From NCBI GenBank assembly GCA_963965975.1, contig OZ014411.1, positions 3,271,001 through 3,335,000 on the forward strand: a stretch of DNA of 64,000 nt, given 5' to 3'. The translations under genes were made by a program, and so were the position numbers. The stretch's first letter is position 1, and each line of letters begins with the position of its first letter. The notes below the pieces were generated by a model, which was given only the letters and a program-made list of their open reading frames with translations, was not told the DNA's origin and did no database searches. Of the stretch, positions 22,600 to 40,700 are shown one piece after another. Source of the stretch: Xestospongia bergquistia (taxonomy: Eukaryota > Porifera > Demospongiae > Haplosclerida > Petrosiidae).

Positions 22600-25249
22600 T
22601 TAGAGCATTGACGTCTCCACGGATCTCGAGTTTTCAGGTGTATCCATACTATTGCCTGATGATCTCGAGTTTTCAGGTGTATCCATACAACTGCCTGATG
22701 ATCTCGACTTTTCAGGTGTATCCATACTACTGCCTGATGATTCAAAATTAACAAACTTTTGAAGTTCATGTTTTGAGAGCCAAGTAATAAATGTAAGCAA
22801 TAGTATAGGAAAAAAATTACTAATGGAGTTAACTATACCACTGTTGTCAGCACCAATAAAAATAACAGCTGTTAAATATGTATATGAAAAGAGTAAAAAG
22901 AAGAGAAGAGCAAAAGCATGAGTTGGTAGACGTAAGATGAAAGAAAATACTCGACTTCTGTAATTAGGCAATGGGGGTACACAAAACAAATCTTCATAAC
23001 AATCATATATGTCAGCAAAAGCATATGTGAGGTAAAATAATGCTATAACAACTGTAGAAACTGTTGAGAAAACTTGTAGTGGATTAGCTAAAGCTGCAAT
23101 GACAATACCAATACCATGAATACAGAATGCCACACTTGAAAGAAGTATAGTTAAAGATCCTATGAATTGGTAAAAGATTACAGCCTTTCCTTCACAATGA
23201 TTAGAGGATTCATCTCTTCTACAGAGTAAGATCATTGGAAGAGCAATAAAGTTTGCCTCCTTTTTTTCAGTAAGTTCGGGTCTATCTTTTGCTCGTCGAA
23301 CAATTATTATTATTGAAAAGACTCCACACACACAAATAGACAAAACAAGACCAATAATTATTAAATAATATATAGAAATAGTAGTAGAATTCCAAGCTGT
23401 CCCAAACCTGGAAATTTCATAGATATCCAAGACAAAGATCATCATGTTAACTAAAATTAAAGTTGATATAATTGCCCAAAATAAGCTTTTAAATCGAAAT
23501 CTTTGAGTATTCTCTTTATTAGGTGTTTTAGATTTCCGATACAGTAACTCATAGTTACTATCCAACATTGATGATGTAGTCAATACGCAGGCAGAAAATA
23601 CACTGATTGCTGCAATTGTTAATATATATATGTGAACTTCGTATATATCTTCCTTTTCAAATACTGCAAAATCATTTGTTTCTAAATTTTCTTTGTAAGA
23701 AGAATATCCTAGTAATGATGAGTCAGCTCCATGATCTATGACAGATAATCGATGAGTAGTGTATAGTTTCAGCTGTAAATTAGAAAAGGCATTTAAATAT
23801 GTTTAAAAAATCATGAACACAGTATTTAGTATTGCTTAATATGTAGGGTTGACCTGATATAAAATCTTTACTTCAGGCTTATATAAGCATCTAATTGTCA
23901 TTGTTGAGTCTGTCCACATTAAAACACCTTTAAAGCTATAGAAAACATTGTTTGAATAGATAATTAGAATTTTAAAAAAAATAAAAAAAATAAAAATTAG
24001 AAGCAAATATGATCCAGATATAAAGAAAAGAAGTTAACATGAACATCCAAATCATTCATAAGTAACTAAATCTTTTAGTTAAGTAAGGGCTGCTTATAAA
24101 ATATTAATGGTGAAAATGTTAGAATGTTGTATTAGTCCCAATATTAAATTTTATTTTATGATATTGTTTATTACAAATTAAACAAGGAGTAAAGAAGTAA
24201 TAAAAACATTTGAAATGAAACGGGGTATATAATAGATATGACAATAACAAAAGTACAGAACAAGGTATGTGCAAATCTATACAACAAACAGTAGGTATAA
24301 TCTTCAACTAGATAGTTATCATATTACTTTTTAAGGATTTTGTATTTGTGTGTACAATGTGCTGTGCCTAACTGGCATTTGCAATTTTGGGTATTATCAT
24401 CCCCACTTTTTTATTTATATTTTTTTGTACTTGTACAATCATAAATAAAAACAAATTTATCAGAAATGTCTAAAAAATTATTCATTTATTTGTAACAAAT
24501 ATGTAGGATATATATTTGTATATACACATATAATACACAGACATACATCCTATAAAGAGAATTATAGTCCTCCATAAATACAAATTGTAAATTTATGGAA
24601 TAATTGTGACATGTTGGTATGAATTTTATCGTAAGATTTAAATATATCAAATAAATATCATGTTTTATTAGTCTATATGTATTATATAACGTACATCTCT
24701 GAATCATGATATAACACACATACACATGCATATAAATATATTTTTATAAACCAATTATTTTAACAACTGGATGTTTGCTTACTTTAGTGAATTACACTTA
24801 AAACATAAATTTCATGTGCTTGATTAATTTAAATGACTAACCCATATAGTAGCATCATTCAAAAGTCTAATCTTCTCAATACTGCTTATGTTTTGACAAA
24901 ATGGGTCAATAGTGATATTTGCATAATATATGTCAATTGAATAGGTCCTTAATGATAAACCTTGAAGAAACTGTGGATAAGAATATACAAGAACTTGGGA
25001 GGTGTGCCATCGATAAACATAAATAGATGTGTTGTTAGTTGTTATACTATCATTTTCCTTGACTACATAAGTGACTTCCACTATTAATGCTGGATGTTGA
25101 TTTGCTGGATAAAATGCATGCACAAAATTTAGCATGTTCTCATCACTAGATAGTAATGACTCCTCTAGTTCTTTGAAAGAACCAATACACTTTTCCGAAT
25201 AAGTGACTGGTTGAAGAAGGAAAACTAAAAGCAAAAGTCCTACTGACAT
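22600..25249 (-). CDS. SP-7TM family copy C (open, two coding exons)
   Basis: Exon 1 is 24842-25249 (136 codons): a signal peptide MSVGLLLLVFLLQPVTYS, then an ectodomain with Cys in EKCIGS and PFCQNI and several NXS/T sites. The donor is ATATGG|GTTAGT. Exon 2 is 22600-23772 after a CAG acceptor, phase 0, starting LKLYTTHRLSV. It codes about seven membrane segments, then a C-tail. Total length is about 526 residues with no stop or frameshift, so this copy is likely functional. Its tail is unique in having three tandem 13-residue repeats (SSGNSMDTPENSR type). Loop charge and the signal peptide suggest an outside N-terminus and a cytoplasmic tail. The fold is receptor-like, but no known receptor-class motif is seen. 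Confidence 0.88.
22615..22745 (-). repeat. 39-bp coding tandem repeat in copy C
   Basis: Three units of 39 bp (plus strand CTCGAGTTTTCAGGTGTATC and following bases) encode the repeated SMDTPE.SRSSG tail. None of the other copies has it. Confidence 0.85.
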
Positions 25250-26774: not shown

Positions 26775-27516
26775 TTAATCCTTTCACCGCTAACCACGCA
26801 CAAGACATTTTAAACTGTGACATAAAGTGCTTGATTATGACATTATGGTAATTATGATTAAGTCAAAATGAATATAATTACATATTACCTTAAATGTCAT
26901 GTTTTTGATGATAATGCATTATGTACATGCACACTCAATACTTGTGAAATCATGTGCATTGTTAAATTACTATGAATATAATTATATATTTACTTATATG
27001 GTCGATAATTTTTTCGCTTATACTGCATAACATTCGTCCTTTGTGAGGCTATAGCTATAGGTTTCTGGTATGACCTACCTCAGATATATATATAGCTGAG
27101 GTAGGTCATATATATAGCTGAGACATGTCATACAACATAATTATGTTACAACTAATACTATTGATTTCAGTTTAATTTTGCCAACTGGATTTATGTTGAA
27201 GTAAATAATGCAACATAAATAAACCAAACGTATGTGACCATAATATCAAATATTTTTTTATAGTCAGTGGCATCAGAGAAAGGGCAGAGGAGCAATCATC
27301 CCCCAAATGTAAAAGTATGTTGGAAAGCACTACTACTGTACTAAGTTTTATATATGATATTAGTTATTCTATATGGTCAATTATTACTCTAAAGTACCTA
27401 TTTAACTCACATAATGTAGCGATAACACTTCTAAACAGGCTGAGAACCTCAAAGTGTGTTAAAGCAAAAAAATTGCCGTAGAGTGTTTTGGGCGTGGTTT
27501 GTAATGGAAGGGTTAA
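26775..27516 (-). mobile_element. TTAA-flanked MITE, complete copy
   Basis: Bounded by TTAA at 26775-26778 and 27513-27516. The termini are TCCTTTCACCGCTAACCACGC at the left and, on the minus strand, CCCTTCCATTACAAACCACGCC at the right, giving imperfect inverted repeats of about 28 bp. Length is about 740 bp, with no ORF. It contains the palindrome GACCTACCTCAG...CTGAGGTAGGTC at about 27070-27110. It is the best-delimited member of the family also seen at 7385, 35703, about 59935 and about 62130. Confidence 0.7.
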
Positions 27517-28950
27517 ATTAAGTTAAAAACGTAAACTATGATGAGACAGCAAAGTGGATGTTGTAGTCCCAGGGAATCTGGTCAAGGTCCAAGAGTATCA
27601 TCAATTATTATCTTATCTTATACCACTAGCATATATGTGCCAATAATGGTTAATTAAAATAAATTGCGTGAATACTTAAAAGAATAAAAAATAAACTTGT
27701 GAAGAGAATCAAGTAAAAATCTTAGTATTTGATGAAATCTAATGATGTACTACTTTTGCAAAGAAAGTATGAGAATTGTGGAGGAGAGTTTGAACATTTG
27801 TTTGAGAAAAAGATATCTGACAGAATTGTTGTCAAACTAATGATAGGAATGTTTTACTTTTCTTTTGTTTATTAACGTTTTGTACAATTGTGTTTCATAA
27901 TAGAACAATAAATTGAAGATTTTTGCAGAAAAAAGAATAGTGGACTTATCATTGAATCACAATAGGTTAAAATCAGGGAATTAAAGCACATTTCAATTTT
28001 ATCCAATCTTAATAATGTTTTTAAAAATTTCATTAACAGTTTGTTGTTTATATACTAGGAACTTCAGGAAGCAAAGAGTATATATTGAAAATTACCTCAA
28101 ACTCACAACTTATGGTGTTAGGTAATTTAGGGAAGTAACACCTTATATGAGAAGATGAGTTATTTATAGAAATGTCCTTGCAGATTCCGAAGTTTCTATT
28201 GTCTCAAAAAAAAGATATAGAAGTGGCTATATAACTCACAGTATTTGACGTTTTTCTTTATAGAAAGGAAGACTCATTCAATGAAATTAAAACCAAAACA
28301 ATCTCAAGTACTAGTGAAGTCTAAGAACCAAATATCTGACAGACATCTAAGACTTAAATGTAAGAATTTAAATAGCAAAAGTTTGTATATATAAAGGAAA
28401 TAATACCACAATACTGCTAGTCAAAACATTTTTTGTGACATGCATATTGAACAAAATAAAACACATAAACAGCAAAGACGTGAGTATGAGATGAAAATGA
28501 GAGCTAAAAAGACAAAGGATCATATATATGTAGTTGAGGTAAGTCATACCAGGAATGTTAACTTTCATAAAGAATGAGGTAGCATGCAACTACGTAATGC
28601 AGCACGGAGCTAAAAAATTGTTAATGATCACTTAAGTAAATGTGTCCTGATTTACAAAAAGGGACCACTTCCGTCAAAACACCTGTGACATGATTTGTGA
28701 AAAAAACCACTGTTAAAACGTATTAAGATACAGTTTCAAATACATATAGGATAGTTACACATGTATACCAACTGTATGTATACAAAACTGAGATGTTTGA
28801 GAATTTTTGATGGTTGTTTGTCCATAAATCAGGTCAAATGTGTTTTGACAGATCCTTTTTTTGCAGTTCACATCACAAATATAATTATATTCATAGCAAT
28901 ATAATTTCACAAGTGCTATATAAATAATTTTATTCATAATCTCATGATAA
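27517..28950. repeat. Distal upstream flank of copy C
   Basis: No gene is seen. 27620-27860 is fragment X2 inverted and 28430-28510 is fragment X1 (AAACAGCAAAGACGTGAGTA). 27835-28230 repeats 26380-26760. 28640-28720 resembles 50390-50420 (AAAGGGACCACTTC). Confidence 0.5.
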
Positions 28951-29591: not shown

Positions 29592-29997
29592 TTTAATGTA
29601 AACTAAAAATTGCAACTTGTTCATATGTAAGTATGTATTATGTCTTCAACTCAATATTTTTGCCCAACAGTGCTGTTTCAAACAAATTTTGTATGTTTCT
29701 TAATTTTACAAAATATATAATAGTAACTTGTAGTAGTAACCTGTTGTCATCATTTTCTTTATAGAAACGTCTGTGATTGAAATCCTTACATTAGACTCTT
29801 AGTTGTCAGCTGTACATATTTCATTCTTAGACTTTGATTGGTATTGTTTTTACTTTATCAAACAAGACTTTCTTTCTTATAAAGATAAACATCATCAGTC
29901 ACTATGGCATTACAGCCATTTCTATATATTTTTGTCTAGATGATAGCAAGATTAGCTCTATAGCCACATCACTTAATTTTAATCTGATTACGTGTTA
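29592..29997. repeat. 3' flank of D passing into the upstream flank of E
   Basis: No gene is seen. The first ~150 bp match other SP-7TM 3' flanks. From about 29740 the sequence matches 6320-6560 and 14525-14800 and is interrupted by the pogo-like element at TA 29996-29997. Confidence 0.6.
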
Positions 29998-30527
29998 GAG
30001 GCGTGGCTCGATGATCGGACACTCTGGTGTTTTTACTGTTTTTAAATAAACGGAGCGTTCGAAGCTGACTTTCGACACCAGCTTCGAGTGCCCCAATCCG
30101 TCATATAGTTATTGCAAAAAATATACTGAAAAAAAAATCTCTTTGCACAATTTACAAGCATATATCCTGTACACTTGTGATAATTATAATACGGACATTC
30201 TTATGTAGATTCGAACGATGACCATATCTTGGTAACAATTATAGCTTGAACGTTTTCTCTGCTTTTGAACACTATATAAGATGTAAAGAATTAACCGTCA
30301 AAATTTGGAGAAATTTCTACATACAGTTCTGAATATACATTTCTTTGAAAACATGAACTCATGGACGAATAAACGGACATTTAAGAGAAGTGCTTTTCTA
30401 AAGTAGGTGATAAGTTCTTGTTATTTATTAACTCAAATTTGACAATCACAAATACTGTTTATTAATTATACAAATTCACTGTGCATGAAGAAATAATTTT
30501 ACAACAAAAAAGTCTAGCAGTTAATTA

Positions 30528-33500
30528 TTACATGTCACACATAAAACAAACAAAATTTAGTGATTTTTCTTTCTTGATCCCAACACATATCATGTGGTAC
30601 CACTGGAAACATTTTTCACATTCCACCCAATTAGTTGCTTTAGTATGAAAACATAAATTATTAGAACATGCTGATAGTTTTTCTGTAATAAAATACATGA
30701 ATTGTATTATTATATTGTGAATATTTTCATACTGGTTGTCAGATTATTCTTTGACTGTTCTAGTGTAGTTTCTAAAATGGCAAGCCATTAGTCAAGGGTT
30801 AATTATAATATAATGTCACATACCATTATCACTGAGTCCATTCTTGTCATATTCACTGAGTCCTATCTCTTCTTCACCTCTCTTGCTAGTACTTCTGGTA
30901 CATCTCTTCCTCCCTGTAACAAGGATAATTAACTCATAAATACTTCAGTATATATACATTACACATACTGGAAATTTGAGAATTTTTAGGTAATGTCTTT
31001 GACTGTTCTAGTGTAGTTTCTAAAATGGCAAGCCACTAGTCAAGGGTTAATTATAATATAATGTCACATACCATTATCACTGAGTCCATTCTTGTCATAT
31101 TCACTGAGTCCTATCTCTTCTTCACCTCTCTTGCTAGTACTTCTGGTACATCTCTTCCTCCCTGTAACAAGGATTATTAAGTCATAAACACTTCAATTTA
31201 TATACATTACACATACTGGAAATTTGAGAATTTTTAGGTAATGTCTTTGACTGCTCTAGTGTAGTTTCTAAAATGGCAAGCCACTATTAAAGGGTTAATT
31301 ATAATATAATGTCACATACCATTATCACTGAGTCCACTCTTGTCATATTCACTGAGTCCTATGACTCCTATCTCTTCTTCACCTCTCTTGCTAGTACTTC
31401 TGGTACATCTCTTCCTCCCTGTAACAAGGATAATTAACTCATAAATACTTCAATATATATACATTACACATACTGGAAATTTGAGAATTTTTAGGTAATG
31501 TCTTTGATTGTTCTAGTGTAGTTTCTAAAATGGCAAGCCACTAGTCAAGGGTTAATTATAATCAAATGTCACATACCATTATCACTGAGTCCATTCTTGT
31601 CATATTCACTGAGTTCTATCTCTTCACTTCTCTTGCTAGTACTCCTGGTACATCTCTTCCTCCCTGTAACAAGGATTATTAACTCATAAATACTTCAATA
31701 TATATATACATTACACATACTGGAAATTTGAGAACTTTTGGGTGACTGTTCTAGTGCACTTTCTAAAATAGCAAGCCATAAATTCAAAGTATAATTAACC
31801 TCAGGCTGTATCACTTACTATTCTCATCTACTTCACTGAGACTGATGTCTCCATCACTGGATTTACATGCTGTAGCGTCTAAAGATAATTCTTCAGGATG
31901 GAATATTTTTTCCATTTTTCATATCTGATGTCAGGTAGATCATAACCATTCTCATACCTCCTAGAAAACCGACTGTGCTCTTCTTCTGTAAAATCAAATT
32001 TTGATGTACTCTGTTCACTTTGTTTTTTTTCTTTCTTTTGTCTCTCTTTCTCGGCTTTTTCAACTGCTCTTTTATTTTTTCTCTCCTCTACTTCCTTCTT
32101 TTTCTGTTCTCGTTCCATTGCCTTCTTTTCTCGCTGTTGCTTTCTAAGATCTTTAGCTTTTAATTCATCTGCTTTCTTCATTTCTTTTTCTCTTATCAAC
32201 TGAAGATTTTCAGAACTTGTTAAAACACGAGCACTGTGGTTTGTCTTTTTCTCATTACTTGGTAGCTGAGGTAAAGTAAGAAAATCATGAAGAGTAGATG
32301 GCTGAACTTTTGTAATGCAATCTTCGTCTGCAGAAAAGTTACCATAGTAACCACAGGTACTGTCTTCACTACAAGTGTGTTCCTCATAATAATCAATGCT
32401 TTCACTATCGGAAGTAATACAGGTACGAGGATGAGACTTAGCTGGGCTATAAAGAGGAAGAAACAGTCCCATCTTGGAGGCTATCATATCTATTTTCCCA
32501 TCCTCCTCAAGTTGCAAGTAACGTAATACTGCATACCTGTTGAAGGGGTATATACCAGTGGATCTAAACCCAGCAACAATATTGGCTGGTGTCATTGCCT
32601 TTGTCCAGGCTCGACTAAAAATTTCGGTGAAATTAAATCTATTAACGGCTTTCCCAGGATTATAGGACATGTAGAGATGACACTCATTATTGTATGCCTT
32701 TTTTAAGGGGCTAAAACATGACCTGTCCAGTGGTTGACACAAATGAGTTGTATGAGGTGGCAAGCAAAATAAGATGATCTGATTTGCAGCAGCTGTCCTG
32801 ATCAATTGAGGTTGGTAATGTGAAGAATGTCCATCCAGGAGTAACAAGATGGGTCGTTGTGGAGGGATGTGAAGTAAGAAGTGATTAGTAAACCATTCCT
32901 GAAACAATTCGGAATCTATCCATCCATTTTTAGACAACCCATATGCAGTACCTGGGATTTCTCCTGTTGTGAAATTGGGCTTGAGTTTTTTCCGATCAAA
33001 AATTATCATCGGAGGCAAAAGGTAACCAGAAGCACTGCATGCTGACAAAACAGTAATTTGGGCTTTATCACCACTAGTAATACAGGAAATATCTCTCTGA
33101 CCTTGTACTCCAATTATTTTGCCAGGTTTATGTTGCAATGGGAACCCGCTCTCATCACAGTTAAAAATCAGCATTGGTGATTCAAGCAAATTATTAGACT
33201 TCAATGTTTCTTCAAGCAAGTCAAAATATCGATTTATGACATCTGGGTTAGCTGCAATAGCTCTACAATATGCTAATTTGGATCCATATCTTAATCGTAG
33301 TTTTGGATGCCTCTTCACAAATGAGCCCCACCAACCAGTAGTGACATTGATATCTTCAACTTCACATTGACGTTTCTTTGCTAGTGCTGCTCTAACAATA
33401 CAAGAACTTGTTCCTTTGTCCGAGCGAAGCCAATTTTAGCTGAACCTACCAAAAATGTTACTAGTTCTTCTTCTTCAATGTCATTTAGGTATCTAGGGGG

Positions 33501-33699
33501 TCCACTGTGAGCACCAAAAGAGACATTACCAGACACTCTATCCCATAATGTTGACTTTGGCACATTATACATTTCAGCAGCTTTTCTAAGAGTAAATCGT
33601 CCTTTAGCCACGTCCTTTGCTGCTATACGTAACTGGGTCTCACTCCACCGCTTGTAGTGCCTATCCCTTGGCTTTTTTTCCTCCAGAGGATAACCTAGG
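30528..33699 (-). CDS. pogo/Tigger-like transposase with tandem exons and a C-terminal PHD finger
   Basis: Exons on the minus strand are: 33699 down to 31819 (HTH plus DDE), four cassette exons (31577-31663, 31320-31418, 31072-31161, 30824-30913), and 30528-30682. The N-terminal part has a psq/CENP-B-like HTH (KRWSETQLRIAAKDVAKG, TLRKAAEMYNVPKSTLWDRV). The catalytic part shows Asp in IFNCDESG, Asp in LLLLDGHSSHY and Asp in QPLDRSCF. A Lys/Glu-rich coiled segment follows. The last exon codes CSNNLCFHTK, WVECEKCFQWYHMICVGI and FVCFMC, a PHD finger. All junctions are phase 1. Single-base frameshifts near 33395 and 31900 interrupt the main exon, so it is inactive unless these are consensus errors. 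The first coding exon upstream of 33699 is not identified. Confidence 0.8.
30735..31790 (-). repeat. ~248-bp tandem array of exon-intron cassettes
   Basis: Four units of about 248 bp, each with one 87-99 nt exon between a TTACAG acceptor and a G|GTATGTGACAT donor, plus a partial fifth unit. All exons are phase 1 on both sides, so any number can be joined. Exon consensus is RKRCTRSTSKRGEEEIGLSE, then YDKNGLSDN. One unit has 9 extra bases and one lacks 3, and both keep the frame. Confidence 0.9.
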
Positions 33700-34988
33700 C
33701 TATTAAAGATGTAACTATAACATAATAAATCATATATAAACAAAGAAAAATAGACTCATGTCAGGGGCACTTAAAAAAGGACTTGCATGTTTTCAAACAA
33801 TTAATTGTCTCAGCACCCACTTAAAGCACATAAACTTTATGGCTTGCAATAAGTCATTTGTACAAAGGTTTTTCACAACTAATTGTCATAGCTTTGTATA
33901 GAGACTCCTAGTTATGTATAAAAGATAGAAAGATTTTAGCTCATTGTAGTGGACTACTGCATTCTGAAGATTCAATAAGACCAGATGAAAACAAATAAGT
34001 AAGGCAGATATGTCTACTAGTATGTTTGAAGGTATACATCTCTTCTCTACTACATAACAAAGACTATACATTGCACCAATGACTACATGTGATATAACTA
34101 TATACTGCAAAATATTTAGAGCCTTTGATCATATCATGAATTTTGAATAAGCAACTCATTAGAACTCATCTCTCTATCAAAATAATGACTAGTGACTTTA
34201 ACATGTTATCTGCCTACCCTTCCTCCTATTCTTGTGACTATAACATCATACCTACAGTATAATACATGGTCTATGACATATTTTAGTTTACGGGATGACT
34301 TTATCTTTTTTTCTCAAAGGTATTAAAAACAAATAATATTGTCATATAATTAATTGATTATCATTTAAAAGTTTATTTCACTCAGATTATTATAATTCAA
34401 ATATCTATCACATGTTTACCTACTTATAGTAAAGTTAGTCATAAAGTCAAGCAGCTATTAAGCCTTAGTACAACACTCTTATTATTAAAAAAGTGAACTG
34501 ACTCTGTTATTACAGACATATTTACTAATCACTAAAATGGCCAGGGTTGACTAAGGTATTGCTAACACATAGCTGAAGCCATCAAGTCTTCCACATGGAC
34601 ATCTATACATTATCACAAATTACCATGTTTGATTCTTTCCACAATAGTTAATACGAGAGAGTCCTGGATAAGGTTTAACTTGAGGTAGATTTAGTTGATA
34701 GAAAGAGAAAGACTCAGAAACTGACAGAAAACTCCTAGCTAACGTTTAAACTTGAGGTTGTGTTGTCCGCCAAAACATACCACGTGTCCGCAAATACAAT
34801 TAAGTCCGTACAAGCACCAAAAACGGAGCTCATTCACAACACGGAGTTTAGTTAGGAAACTGTGCAAGGAAAGTGTATTCATTGAGCATAACCAAGAGCC
34901 ACATTGTACGGAAGCAATAAGCTGTCTTCAAATTTTTAGAAGAAAAAGTGTCCGAGAATAGATTTGTCCGTCCATTGATCTTCGACTC
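33700..34988. other. 5' part of the pogo-like element
   Basis: No convincing gene is seen. The acceptor at 33700 implies an upstream leader exon here that I cannot place. 34750-34988 is richer in CG dinucleotides (GTCCG recurs several times) and forms the terminal region. The short open frame at 34752-34961 has no coding character. Confidence 0.5.
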
Positions 34989-36774
34989 TACTTCCCTAAC
35001 AATATAACTTTGGCAGTTTGGGATTACATTCTATATATACTCTTCCCTATCTAGAAGTTCCTATTACATCAACATCAAACTCATAATGAAATTGAAAAAA
35101 AACAATTATTATAATTCATCCGAGACTGGATTAAAAGATCTGCATAATTCTTTAATTCTATCCTAATGTGTTACAATGATATCTTAATATTTCTTTTTCT
35201 GTAGATAGCTTCTATTATGAAACACAAATGAACAAAGATCTCACTATAAGAAATAAACAGAAGGAGAGTCAAAACGAACAATAGAACATTCCTAAAGTTA
35301 AAATTAAAGTTACACCATTAAAATATTTGAGTAAAATTAACCAGATCCTCCACCCTTTAATACTTTTTGCATTTCCATCGTTATTTTGATAACAATTCTA
35401 TCAGGTATATCTTCCTCTAACAAAGGTACATATTCTCCTCCCTAATTCTCTTACTTTCTTTGCAAAACAAGTTCATTATTAGTTGTAATCAAGTGTCGAA
35501 ATTCTTCTTTGTTCTCTTCACAAGCTTATGTTTTATTCATTCAAGTAAATATACATTGTTCAACCATTATTGACACATATATGCTCGTGGTATAACACAA
35601 CTTAATAATTGATGATACTCTTGGAACCTCACCCAAATTCCTTTGAACACATTAACATATGTTTATATTTACTGTCTTATTTAGTTTTCTCTTTAATATA
35701 GTTTAACCCTTTCATCACTGACCACGCCTAAGACGTTTTTACTGCAATTTTCACTATAAAGCTAAGAAAACTGTCTTTGAATTTCTCAGCCTGTTTAGTA
35801 CTGTTGTCACTGTAATATGTGAGTTGTATAGGTACTTCAGAAAAATAATGGATCATATAGAAAAAATTAATATCATGTGTAACACTTAGCACTATAGGGC
35901 TTTCCCCTATATTTATGTCTTTTATGATTGCCCCTGCCCTCTCTCTGCCGCAAATGACTATAGATTATGTTTTAAAACAGTAGTTGATGTCATATACATA
36001 CAAATAAGGTTGACCTTGTGTTGCATTATTTGCTGCAACACACTAACACACATGTTCAGTTGTCACAGCTGTTTTTTAAGTGAAATCAAATAGTATTTGT
36101 ATGGTATGTCCGATCTCAGCTGTATTCATGACCTACCCTAACTCAGCTATAAATATACCTGAGGTAGGTCATACCAGGAGGCTATAGCTATAACCTCACA
36201 ACCAAGGAAGGAGTGTACAACTACATGATGCAGCATCAAGCTAAAAAAAATTTAATAACCATATGTAATTATGTTCATAGTAATTTAACTATGTTCATCA
36301 TTTCATAAGTACAGAGTGTGAAAGTAGATAATGTAGCATCACAAGAAACACGTTTTATGAATACTGTCTATCATTGTGACTCAGCTATTTTTATTCATAA
36401 TCTATAAGTAAGTACTTAAACTTCTAAATATGGTCATAAGCAAAACTGCTATAGTTTGTTTGTTACTGTTTGAATTGCAATTGCATACACGTCCTCTCTT
36501 TTGTGAGGCTATGGCCTCCTGGTCATGTATCCCAACCCTACTACAACTGTGACAAGGAATCTTCAATACTTTTCATTATTATTATTCCCTATCTGATCCC
36601 CAATGCATGTATTATTTATCTAAATAAATGTACACCAGTTCACTACTATTTAAAACTCTTTTTATATTACATTGATAGTATTAGTTAAAAATGAATCCCT
36701 TTTAACAACTACTATTAAAGTTGCATTCAAGTTTATTTAGTAATCTTTTATGTTAAACATTTGTGATGTAAATG

Positions 36775-38510: not shown

Positions 38511-40700
38511 ATGACCGAGTTCAATCGAGATATGGATTATAATGAGCTGTTTGACTTACTTCTTGACAAGAGTATACCAATTGACGTATGTGATAAGCTC
38601 CGTGGTAAGTTTCAGTACTTAAGCCGCTATGTGTGCACGTTCGCCTTAGTATAGATCAGTACTGAGATTTGTAGCGGTTATTGTTATTTTACTGAATAAT
38701 GAATAACAGCTGAAATAGACAAACTGACAGAATTTATAATATGCAACAGAATGATAAGAGTTCTAGAATGTTTTTCTAGAGACTGAAAAACACGTGCATC
38801 TATACAAATAAAACACTTACTAATTAATTAATAATGATTAAGTGATAAAGTCAATTTACTATTCCAACAGTTATGAACCTTCTTAATGTTGTACTATGGT
38901 TTGTGTTTATTGTTATAGAGCATGAAGTAGATGGAGAAGCCTTTATGGAGCTCACTGAAGATGACATTTCTAAAGTTGTGACAAAGATTGGTGTAGTTAA
39001 AAAAATCATTCGATTGAGAGCACAGTTTCAATGTCAAATGGTATGTTTATTTTCTATAACCACCAAGATTTGTTTATTCATTTTTAGACTAATCCTAACA
39101 ATACTACTACTACAATCAGTCCATCAATATCCTCTCCATCAATTATCAGTCCACCGATAACCTCTCCATCAATATACAGTCCACCAATGTCATCAGAAAT
39201 GAGTAGCTTGACATTTGATATGGCATCTCCTTTTTCTCCACGCAGTTCAGATTGTGATGACTTGTTTTCTGTTCATTCAATTGGATCATCTGTATCTTCA
39301 AGCAAAGGAAAGTTTACAATTCCATCTACATGGAGACCAACTATCATGGACTGTATTCATAAAGTAACAATTGAGGATCAACGGAGGGCATTAACACCTT
39401 CTCTTCGTAACGAAATTGTCCGTGACCTTGTTACGAGTATGTTCTCGTATAAAAATAATCCAGACAAAGCATTTTGCACCCAAGCAGCCAAAATGCTTGT
39501 ATCTAAGTACAAATTTTTGGAGGACCTTGGGGACAAAGTCAGTGGTTATGTAAGTTAGTTGTCATAATTGACTTCTTATATACCAATGCAACTTTTATAG
39601 GGATCATGGGAGAAAAAATAATTGAGCGTGTTTATAATATGAAAGCTGCTTCTCGTAAGCGACACATGGAACCTGACATTGAAGGAACACCCAAGAAAAA
39701 GAGGGGTAGGCCGAAGAAGCAGAATTTGGAGGACCGGTATCTTCCTATGAAAGGTTTCAATGATGATCATATCACATTATCTCGTAATAAATCGGCTCTT
39801 TATAAAGAGCTAGAAATGAAAAAGCCACGAAAAGAATTAATAATTTCTTTATGTAACCAAACGTTTATGTACAGACGTGAAGAAATATTAAACGAATCTT
39901 CGGAAATTACTGCTTCTGGTCTGATCGACAAATTTCAGGAATTGAAAATTCTCTATGTGGTTAGTTGACATTGGTTTCACTCGTTTTTCATGTATTTTTA
40001 CATTTGTAGATTATAAATGAGATGGACCTTATTCTTGACAAGAAAGATGTGTTTAAGACATGTTTCCAAAATTGGATGAACAAATGGGTTCCTGCTATAA
40101 TAGCGTATGGAAATTCGTTAAAAGGAAAAACTATAGGATTTTTAAAAAGAGTTGAGGCTGAATATCAAGGTAGTAAGTGATTATTAATTGAAATGTATTA
40201 CTTTTAATTTACAGGTGATATAGACTGTAATGCTAAAACTGCCTTAGCACTACTTTGCCATTTGTTTCCTAAAAAAGGTGTGATTAATGCTATTTCGTAT
40301 ATTTATGACGAACGAAAGGTAAGTTTGTAAATTCTAATTATTTAGAATGCTTACTGAAATTTTATCCTTCTAGATGAATGATGATATAGCTGATGTTGCC
40401 TCAGAATGCTCACGCTATTCAGGTCCTCACTTTATTGGATTTTATAGAGAAGATGGCAGTGCTCAGTTTTTCTTATATGTAGAAGGTGTCGTTTTGACAA
40501 CGTCCCATTCGTTCTCTGAGATGTTGATGACCTGGTTCTCCTCCTTTTATGTACTTAACTTGGAGTACATGGTTGAAGTGTTGGAGGTGTGTCTATTTTT
40601 TCAAGAGTCGGTATTTAATTTACCAACTGGCAGTTACAAAAAAGCTAAAAGCGGTAGCTTTCTCTCGATCGCAACTGATATCAGGAAATTTATTTCATAA
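38511..40700 (+). CDS. SAM-domain (SAMD3-like) protein carried by the CACTA element
   Basis: Seven exons are supported by GT/AG sites and phase: 38511-38604, 38919-39040, 39088-39549, 39601-39959, 40010-40169, 40215-40318 and 40374-40700. Exons 1-2 code a SAM domain (LFDLLLDKSIPIDV, then EHEVDGEAFMELTEDDISK and IGVVKKIIRL). Exon 3 has a Ser/Pro linker and a conserved block (RRALTPSLRNEIVRDLVTSM, QAAKMLVSKYKFLEDL). Exon 4 opens GSWEKK and then needs a one-base shift in an A run (about 39612-39617) to continue IIERVYNM, and carries a basic KKKRGRPKK motif. The rest is open to TAA at 40698-40700, about 540 residues. Domain order resembles vertebrate SAMD3. The single frameshift may be mutation or consensus error. 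Its role in transposition is unknown. Confidence 0.8.

Follow-up and report, generated by a model that had tools for sequence, protein, structure and literature searches.

A pogo-like transposon of the sponge Xestospongia bergquistia with an array of in-frame exons between its transposase and a PHD finger

We analysed a 64,000-nucleotide stretch of the genome of the sponge Xestospongia bergquistia (contig OZ014411.1, positions 3,271,001 to 3,335,000), referred to here as the window, which contains a DNA transposon whose gene carries an array of repeated exons between the transposase and a PHD finger. The element, of the pogo superfamily by its sequence, occupies 29998–34988 (4,991 bp), with the gene on the minus strand, between copies of a TA target-site duplication at 29996–29997 on the gene's 3′ side and 34989–34990 on its 5′ side. 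The 3′ end was defined from 40 copies, the window copy included, and the 5′ end from seven other copies, an eighth 5′ stretch proving to lie outside the element; in gene sense the ends read TA-GAGTCGAAGATC...GCCACGCCTC-TA. The terminal sequences, GAGGCGTGGCTCGATGATCGGACA at 29998–30021 on the plus strand and GAGTCGAAGATCAATGGACGGACA at 34965–34988 on the minus strand (gene sense), form a short, imperfect inverted repeat of about 24 bp, GAG(T/G)CG...GATC...GGACA, in the comparison of copies. CGGACA/TGTCCG motifs lie close to each end, one of them within the terminal sequence at 29998–30021. A paralogous empty site at C1:3340385-3340515 (C-numbers denote contigs of the same genome, L-numbers extracted loci) matches the window flanks, once these are fused across one TA, at 131 of 131 bases, which shows that the element inserted into a TA by cut-and-paste. 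The shared ends and this match together show that the limits proposed by a first-pass annotation of the window are exact.

The exon encoding the HTH_psq domain and the DDE nuclease lies at 31819–33699 on the minus strand and ends in a phase 1 donor. It was identified with Pfam on the reading frames of the window (HTH_psq, 1.4e-9; DDE_1, PF03184, 5e-29). The catalytic triad is spaced D-106-D-35-D in the window copy, and DD35D was found in 115 of the 115 sequences in which the triad motif was detected, out of 123 examined. These domains, together with the TA target, bear out the first-pass description of a pogo-like transposase with a helix-turn-helix (HTH) and a DDD core. The coding start lies in an upstream exon that could not be placed. 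On the 3′ side of the DDE exon, Tandem Repeats Finder detects an array at 30748–31743 (minus strand; period 248, 4.0 copies, 93% matches). Each of its four exon-plus-intron units of ~248 bp holds one cassette exon on the minus strand, bounded by AG/GT and phase 1 on both sides: 87 nt at 31577–31663 (GRKRCTRSTSKRSEEIELSEYDKNGLSDN), 99 nt at 31320–31418 (GRKRCTRSTSKRGEEEIGVIGLSEYDKSGLSDN), and 90 nt at both 31072–31161 and 30824–30913 (both GRKRCTRSTSKRGEEEIGLSEYDKNGLSDN). The last exon, at 30528–30682 on the same strand, encodes a C4HC3 PHD finger, recognized by its ligand pattern and by Pfam, and the stop codon. The introns measure 155, 158, 158, 158 and 141 bp from 5′ to 3′, and every junction is in phase 1. 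The cassette exons and their placement between the DDE and PHD exons, both read earlier from the letters of the window, are thus recovered by repeat finding and by the gene model.

The PHD exon alone matches the Pfam PHD profile with 6.2e-6 and 26.6 bits, above the cut-off of 24. All eight zinc ligands are present (C6, C11, C22, C25, H30, C33, C46 and C49); the first zinc pair is CX4C, and the earlier reading of CX2C has to be corrected. In an alignment of 11 sequences, no variation is seen at seven of the eight ligands or at two tryptophans, W19 and W28, and almost none at C6, one row starting after it. The closest matches of the finger in the PDB are PHD3 of KDM5B and then PHD3 of KDM5A, and 25 of the 26 PDB profile matches are, by name, PHD-bearing chromatin proteins. 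By alignment and spacing, W19 and W28 correspond to the two tryptophans of KDM5A/B that line the cleft for histone H3 trimethylated at lysine 4 (H3K4me3), which the available text of PMC9172573 gives as W1625 and W1635 in KDM5A. The KDM5 proteins differ from the transposase in being host demethylases, and the match, a comparison of sequence alone, covers about 35 residues. The conserved ligands and cleft residues suggest that the finger is probably an H3K4me3 reader.

A genome search for further copies, as the first-pass annotation had proposed, shows that the number of units varies from 1 to 8. In the family of the window element (family A), 45 copies have letters covering the array; units were detected by motif matching, which favours well-kept ones. 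Single units occur in two copies, two units in ten, three in 21, four in nine, five in two and eight in one. Three copies with a start called twice, 35 bp apart, were counted as three units each after merging (C7_4929k, C13_3528k and C13_3743k), giving 139 exons in total; at C1:4510k and C1:4526k, the stretch lacks the DDE donor and holds one full and one partial unit. Length is divisible by three in 138 of the 139 exons, and 130 are bounded by AG/GT. The finger pattern lies in an open frame in 41 of the 45 copies. Units are gained and lost in whole exon-plus-intron steps, and the frame is kept because the cassettes are phase 1-1. It had been predicted that the repeat number could change without loss of frame, and in these copies it nearly always does so.

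Young, near-identical copies carry 2, 4 or 5 units: copies with five (C2:3.71 Mb) and four units differ at one site (0.17%) over the final ~580 nt of the DDE exon, and copies with two and four units differ by 0.69% in the DDE exon. The 45 copies are not 45 independent events, as many are host duplications. Old copies on C5, C6, C7, C13 and C15 have one near-identical 3′ flank wherever the flank is seen (the C10 flank was outside the comparison), indicating that they were multiplied by large duplications of the host genome and not by transposition. At C5:4.57-5.19, C6:3.37-4.24, C7:4.74-5.19, C10:2.43-2.68, C13:3.30-4.15 and C15:2.44-3.10 Mb, the old copies within a contig all point the same way, usually at spacings of ~110–220 kb, a recurrence suggestive of tandem duplication of very large segments on several chromosomes. 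Two further arrangements were seen in family A. The copy L004 (C7:3.85 Mb) lacks ~717 bp matching window 33464–34179, which removes the start of the HTH-DDE exon. L002 and L003 (C1:22.86 and 22.88 Mb) are near-identical copies ~20 kb apart, in opposite orientation and with different flanks.

The first unit of the array probably originated when the tail of the DDE exon was duplicated along with the intron behind it. That intron is clearly homologous to the unit intron (local score 144), and the peptide at the exon tail, ISLSEVDEN, is similar to IGLSEYDKN in the acidic half of the unit. Taken alone, the likeness of tail and unit at the nucleotide level is weak (local score 24; the highest score among 500 shuffles is 23); it is the combination with the intron homology that points to this origin.

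The same order of DDE exon, array and PHD-like exon is found in three further families. Families B and C were chosen for a PHD match nearby; D was chosen despite having none, and its finger was found afterwards. In family B (locus L082) the DDE region is ~50% identical, and units of 103/109 bp comprise exons of 54 or 60 nt and introns of 49 bp. In family C (L083) most units measure 110 bp, with exons of 60, 66 or 69 nt and introns of 50 bp, and family D (L084, L093) has exons of 60 or 84 nt with introns of 42 or 40 bp. In each of the three, the array lies between the DDE exon and the PHD-like exon and the reading phase from unit to unit is 1. The units of families A–D are unrelated in sequence. 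From 37 unit cores counted, 35 exons were parsed (9, 9 and 17 in B, C and D) with a pattern that required splice sites; none contains a stop. A coordinate search placed the PHD-like exon 50–74 bp from the array in four of four family D copies. Unit numbers estimated from array spans are ~7–13 in B (15 copies), 8–40 in C (four loci) and 13–20 in D (four copies), and the ~40-unit C array is flanked by a DDE match at C3:3872944 and a PHD match at C3:3879166. At C1:3807235-3815653 one B copy, judged by coordinates, is apparently inserted in another between the DDE exon and the array. Just upstream of the C array, at ~1590–1660 of L083, a stretch resembles by eye an inverted unit exon.

The pairing of nuclease and finger was also counted, roughly, among the DDE_1 matches listed, 101 in number, from which most family A copies were left out and a few old A-like fragments kept. 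A PHD match follows on the same strand within 6 kb downstream in 27 of these; the corresponding numbers are 3 for upstream matches and 2 for the opposite strand. The 27 pairs are 14 of family B, 3 of family C, 2 old A-like fragments and 8 others; family D is missed in this count, as its finger is not among the matches listed. Contig C9 carries D-like arrays of ~21–72 units by span. They were considered as orphan satellites, but the longest (C9:3476060-3484748, ~72 units) looks like part of a gene, because a PHD-like exon with one internal stop lies 86 bp beyond it (C9:3484834). Three others, at C9:3434016-3436587, 3441581-3447153 and 4111240-4114394, have no adjoining PHD match and no DDE match nearby among the candidates scored (150 of 327 and 150 of 305); they may be remnants of elements or arrays turned satellite-like. 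In the four families examined, no relative was found that lacks a PHD exon and carries the repeats outside the gene, as would have spoken against the first-pass gene structure; the three C9 arrays stand apart from this result.

Exon lengths within arrays differ by multiples of three: by 3 and 9 nt in family A, and in families B–D between 54 and 60, between 60, 66 and 69, and between 60 and 84 nt. The introns of family A show six length differences, four of which are not multiples of three. The peptides of eight units compared are all net basic, rich in S, T, G and N, and almost without aromatic residues. Among the variable sites of family D, the first or second codon position accounts for 11 of 11 in the 60-nt exons and for 9 of 12 in the 84-nt exons. 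For the DDE exon, dN/dS ranges from 0.61 to 1.39 between one intact family A copy and seven others; changes in the PHD exon were too few for this comparison.

The comparison with other proteins took in 120 listed among 806 matches, and 121 proteins were scanned for motifs and repeats. A C4HC3-like motif was found by pattern search in the second half of 9 of the 121, and additional fingers missed by this pattern were seen in P0005, P0023 and P0092. Clear tandem repeats occur in 11 of the 121 (score at least 15; shuffle maximum 5), two of them being charged helical runs. Many of these proteins are unnamed and could be predictions from one reading frame, in which later exons would be missing. The gene models named as sponge among the 120 come from Amphimedon queenslandica and Halichondria panicea; they appear to be automated predictions with annotated splicing. 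Like the window gene, LOC100641974, LOC109590340 and LOC135351543 encode an HTH_psq-DDE_1 transposase followed by tandem repeats of 16–30 residues after the catalytic core, and in LOC100641974 and LOC135351543 a PHD-like finger follows the array. Isoforms X10 and X3 of Halichondria LOC135351543 have 4 and 8 copies of a 30-residue repeat before the finger, and the final three repeats are identical between the isoforms. Amphimedon LOC100641974 has a 19-residue repeat and a finger of another type, without the first cleft tryptophan; isoform X7 of LOC109590340, also from Amphimedon, has a 16-residue repeat and no finger. In Halichondria LOC135348769 (P0023) the finger is present and no close tandem repeat was detected by score. 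The sponge models differ from the window gene in that their repeats are unrelated in sequence and their fingers score below the Pfam cut-offs; they are annotated as uncharacterized proteins. A search with the Halichondria tail region matched only the two isoforms of that gene.

Among described transposons, the closest in features is the Fot/Fot-like family. In the available text of PMC7386202, its members have HTH_psq and/or HTH_Tnp_Tc5 in the N terminus, DD35D, a length of 1.2–5.2 kb and, in most cases, inverted repeats of 40–60 bp, and Fot-like elements are described there from Chromista, protozoa and algae, not from sponges. The window element shares HTH_psq, DD35D, a length of 5.0 kb and the TA target found in some Fot-like elements. 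Its inverted repeats, at ~24 bp and imperfect, are shorter than those of most members, and for this reason we describe it as Fot-like in several features, not as a member. The literature search returned no title or abstract describing a transposase-array-PHD layout, with most subscription papers and Repbase lying outside it. In the text available, PHD, intron and exon go unmentioned in the main text of PMC7386202, PHD and intron in PMC7325037, and PHD in PMC10027918. The superfamily is known; the architecture of array plus PHD finger is new as far as the literature searched. Two DDE systems offer parallels. The C-terminal PHD finger of RAG2 reads H3K4me3 from behind a flexible hinge and steers a DDE recombinase system; it resides on a separate subunit, belongs to the Transib superfamily and has no exon array. 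The piggyBac transposase carries a C-terminal cysteine-rich domain, a cross-brace zinc module, which differs from the arrangement here in that it binds the transposon's own ends and follows no repeat array.

The surroundings of the element in the window were also inspected. The transposon stands between the arms of an inverted repeat (27041–27905 and 35210–36201), and we considered whether these arms are part of it. This was rejected: the stretch 27560–27900 has 11 matches, all within 90 kb on one contig (C1:3277859-3367716, that is C1:3.277-3.368 Mb), so the arms represent a local duplication cluster, one copy of which supplies the empty site described above. Elsewhere in the window, a 39-bp tandem repeat lies at 22622–22741 (3.1 copies, 95% matches), and 30-bp repeats at 39115–39188 lie in an open frame and encode a Ser/Pro/Ile-rich stretch.

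We propose that the array encodes a tether of evolvable length that joins the transposase to the probable H3K4me3 reader, and we give this reading a probability of roughly one half. The expandable linker between catalysis and a chromatin reader that the first-pass annotation had inferred is in this way partly supported, by the variable unit number, the position of the array and the likeness of the finger to H3K4me3 readers. A single gene would then provide an HTH_psq DNA-binding domain, a DD35D nuclease, a linker of cassette units, probably disordered and net basic, and a C-terminal PHD finger. We infer that the cassettes of family A are spliced in, forming an unstructured tether between the finger and a catalytic core that sits on the ends of the transposon. 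The PHD finger would hold the transposase complex on H3K4me3 nucleosomes and so affect targeting, while the number of units, together with exon skipping, would set the length of the tether and the count of basic contacts. After the first duplication of exon tail and intron, the array probably grew by unequal recombination or slippage.

Several observations weigh against this reading. Compared with uninterrupted copies, the HTH-DDE exon in the window carries three frameshifts of one base each, a defect missed in the first-pass annotation, so the gene in the window is broken; the family is not, as the copies at C9:2.70 Mb (800 residues) and C10:4.77 Mb (799 residues) are open through the HTH-DDE exon, four cassettes and the PHD finger. 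In-frame stops occur in 26 of the 139 family A units, 25 of them being one change shared by related old copies, and the five-unit copy at C2:3.71 Mb contains one broken exon of 91 nt. The last exon passes the Pfam PHD cut-off when scored alone, whereas the full spliced window protein scores 20.3 bits, below it. The finger of the family C copy that was read contains a stop, that of family D has Asp in place of the zinc-binding His and scores 20.2 bits, also below the cut-off, and the PHD scores of P0005, P0018, P0023, P0040 and P0078 fall short of it as well; most relatives lie near or below this limit. A search of public proteins with residues 610–799 of the predicted family A protein gave no match at E ≤ 0.001. 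Purifying selection on the unit peptides was sought and was not consistent, pN/pS being 0.94, 0.51, 1.35 and 14.3 in families A to D. In family A (50 units from 19 copies, chosen to thin duplicates), exon diversity (.040;.037,.056 and.027 at codon positions 1, 2 and 3) is close to that of the intron (.052). In the other families the exons vary more than the introns (.095/.033 in B,.099/.046 in C and.089/.028 in D, from one array each and small numbers). This difference may stem from constraint acting on introns so short, or from diversification of the exons. These results indicate drift of the peptide under preserved frame and splice sites, a pattern that fits a disordered tether and fits neutral growth almost as well.

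Neutral growth is accordingly a serious alternative, although we consider it less likely than the tether. The array would be a minisatellite-like by-product of unequal recombination whose unit number has no function; since duplication by chance struck a phase 1-1 exon for disordered peptide, gains and losses would be tolerated. Differences in number between near-identical copies, pN/pS near 1 in families A and C, the lack of sequence relationship between units of different families and the very long D-like arrays of C9 are all expected on these terms. What it does not readily account for is the likeness between families: the array has the same position and unit phase in the four examined, the eight unit peptides share a net-basic, S/T/G/N-rich and nearly aromatic-free composition, and a PHD-like exon directly follows even the ~72-unit array. 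Exon lengths also change in threes where four of six family A introns do not, although the independent length changes are few.

Two other explanations concern the finger and the tail as a whole. If the finger is a cross-brace zinc module for the transposon's own DNA or for dimerisation, as the piggyBac domain is for its own ends, the linker would set the reach to the CGGACA motifs and not to histones. The presence of these motifs near both ends of the element, the marginal PHD score in whole proteins and the Asp at the His ligand in family D are consistent with such a role; the near-complete conservation of ligands and of both cleft tryptophans in the 11 aligned sequences, and the predominance of PHD-bearing chromatin proteins among the PDB matches, argue against it, and we regard it as improbable. 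The array may alternatively serve regulation by splicing, as is known for the P element. In the eight copies with a frame reaching the donor, translation read on into the first array intron ends after DENSK, two codons beyond the donor, so that a tail-less transposase is possible from the same gene. On this explanation the intron would often be retained, giving a DENSK* transposase, and the cassette-PHD tail would be tissue-restricted or act as a regulator. Annotated spliced relatives that include the array and, in two genes, the PHD-like finger do not favour this, nor does a finger pattern kept open in nearly all family A copies, and its chances appear as slim as those of a finger for the transposon's own DNA.

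If the evolvable-tether reading is extended from this element to its relatives, a broader picture can be offered, tentatively: sponge pogo transposons may repeatedly have built tunable histone-guided transposases, in which a nuclease and an H3K4me3 reader are joined by symmetric exons whose number shifts with spread and splicing and whose units diversify, as the codon positions of the variable sites in family D suggest. Should the units be spliced in, these families would supply transposases with roughly 1 to 40 of them, a natural series in which the main variable is the length of the linker from catalytic core to chromatin reader. It could be used to study how a reader on a tether directs the integration of DNA, as RAG2 also invites one to do, and it would place the evolution of exon number on the time scale of a transposon, with many near-identical copies available for comparison.

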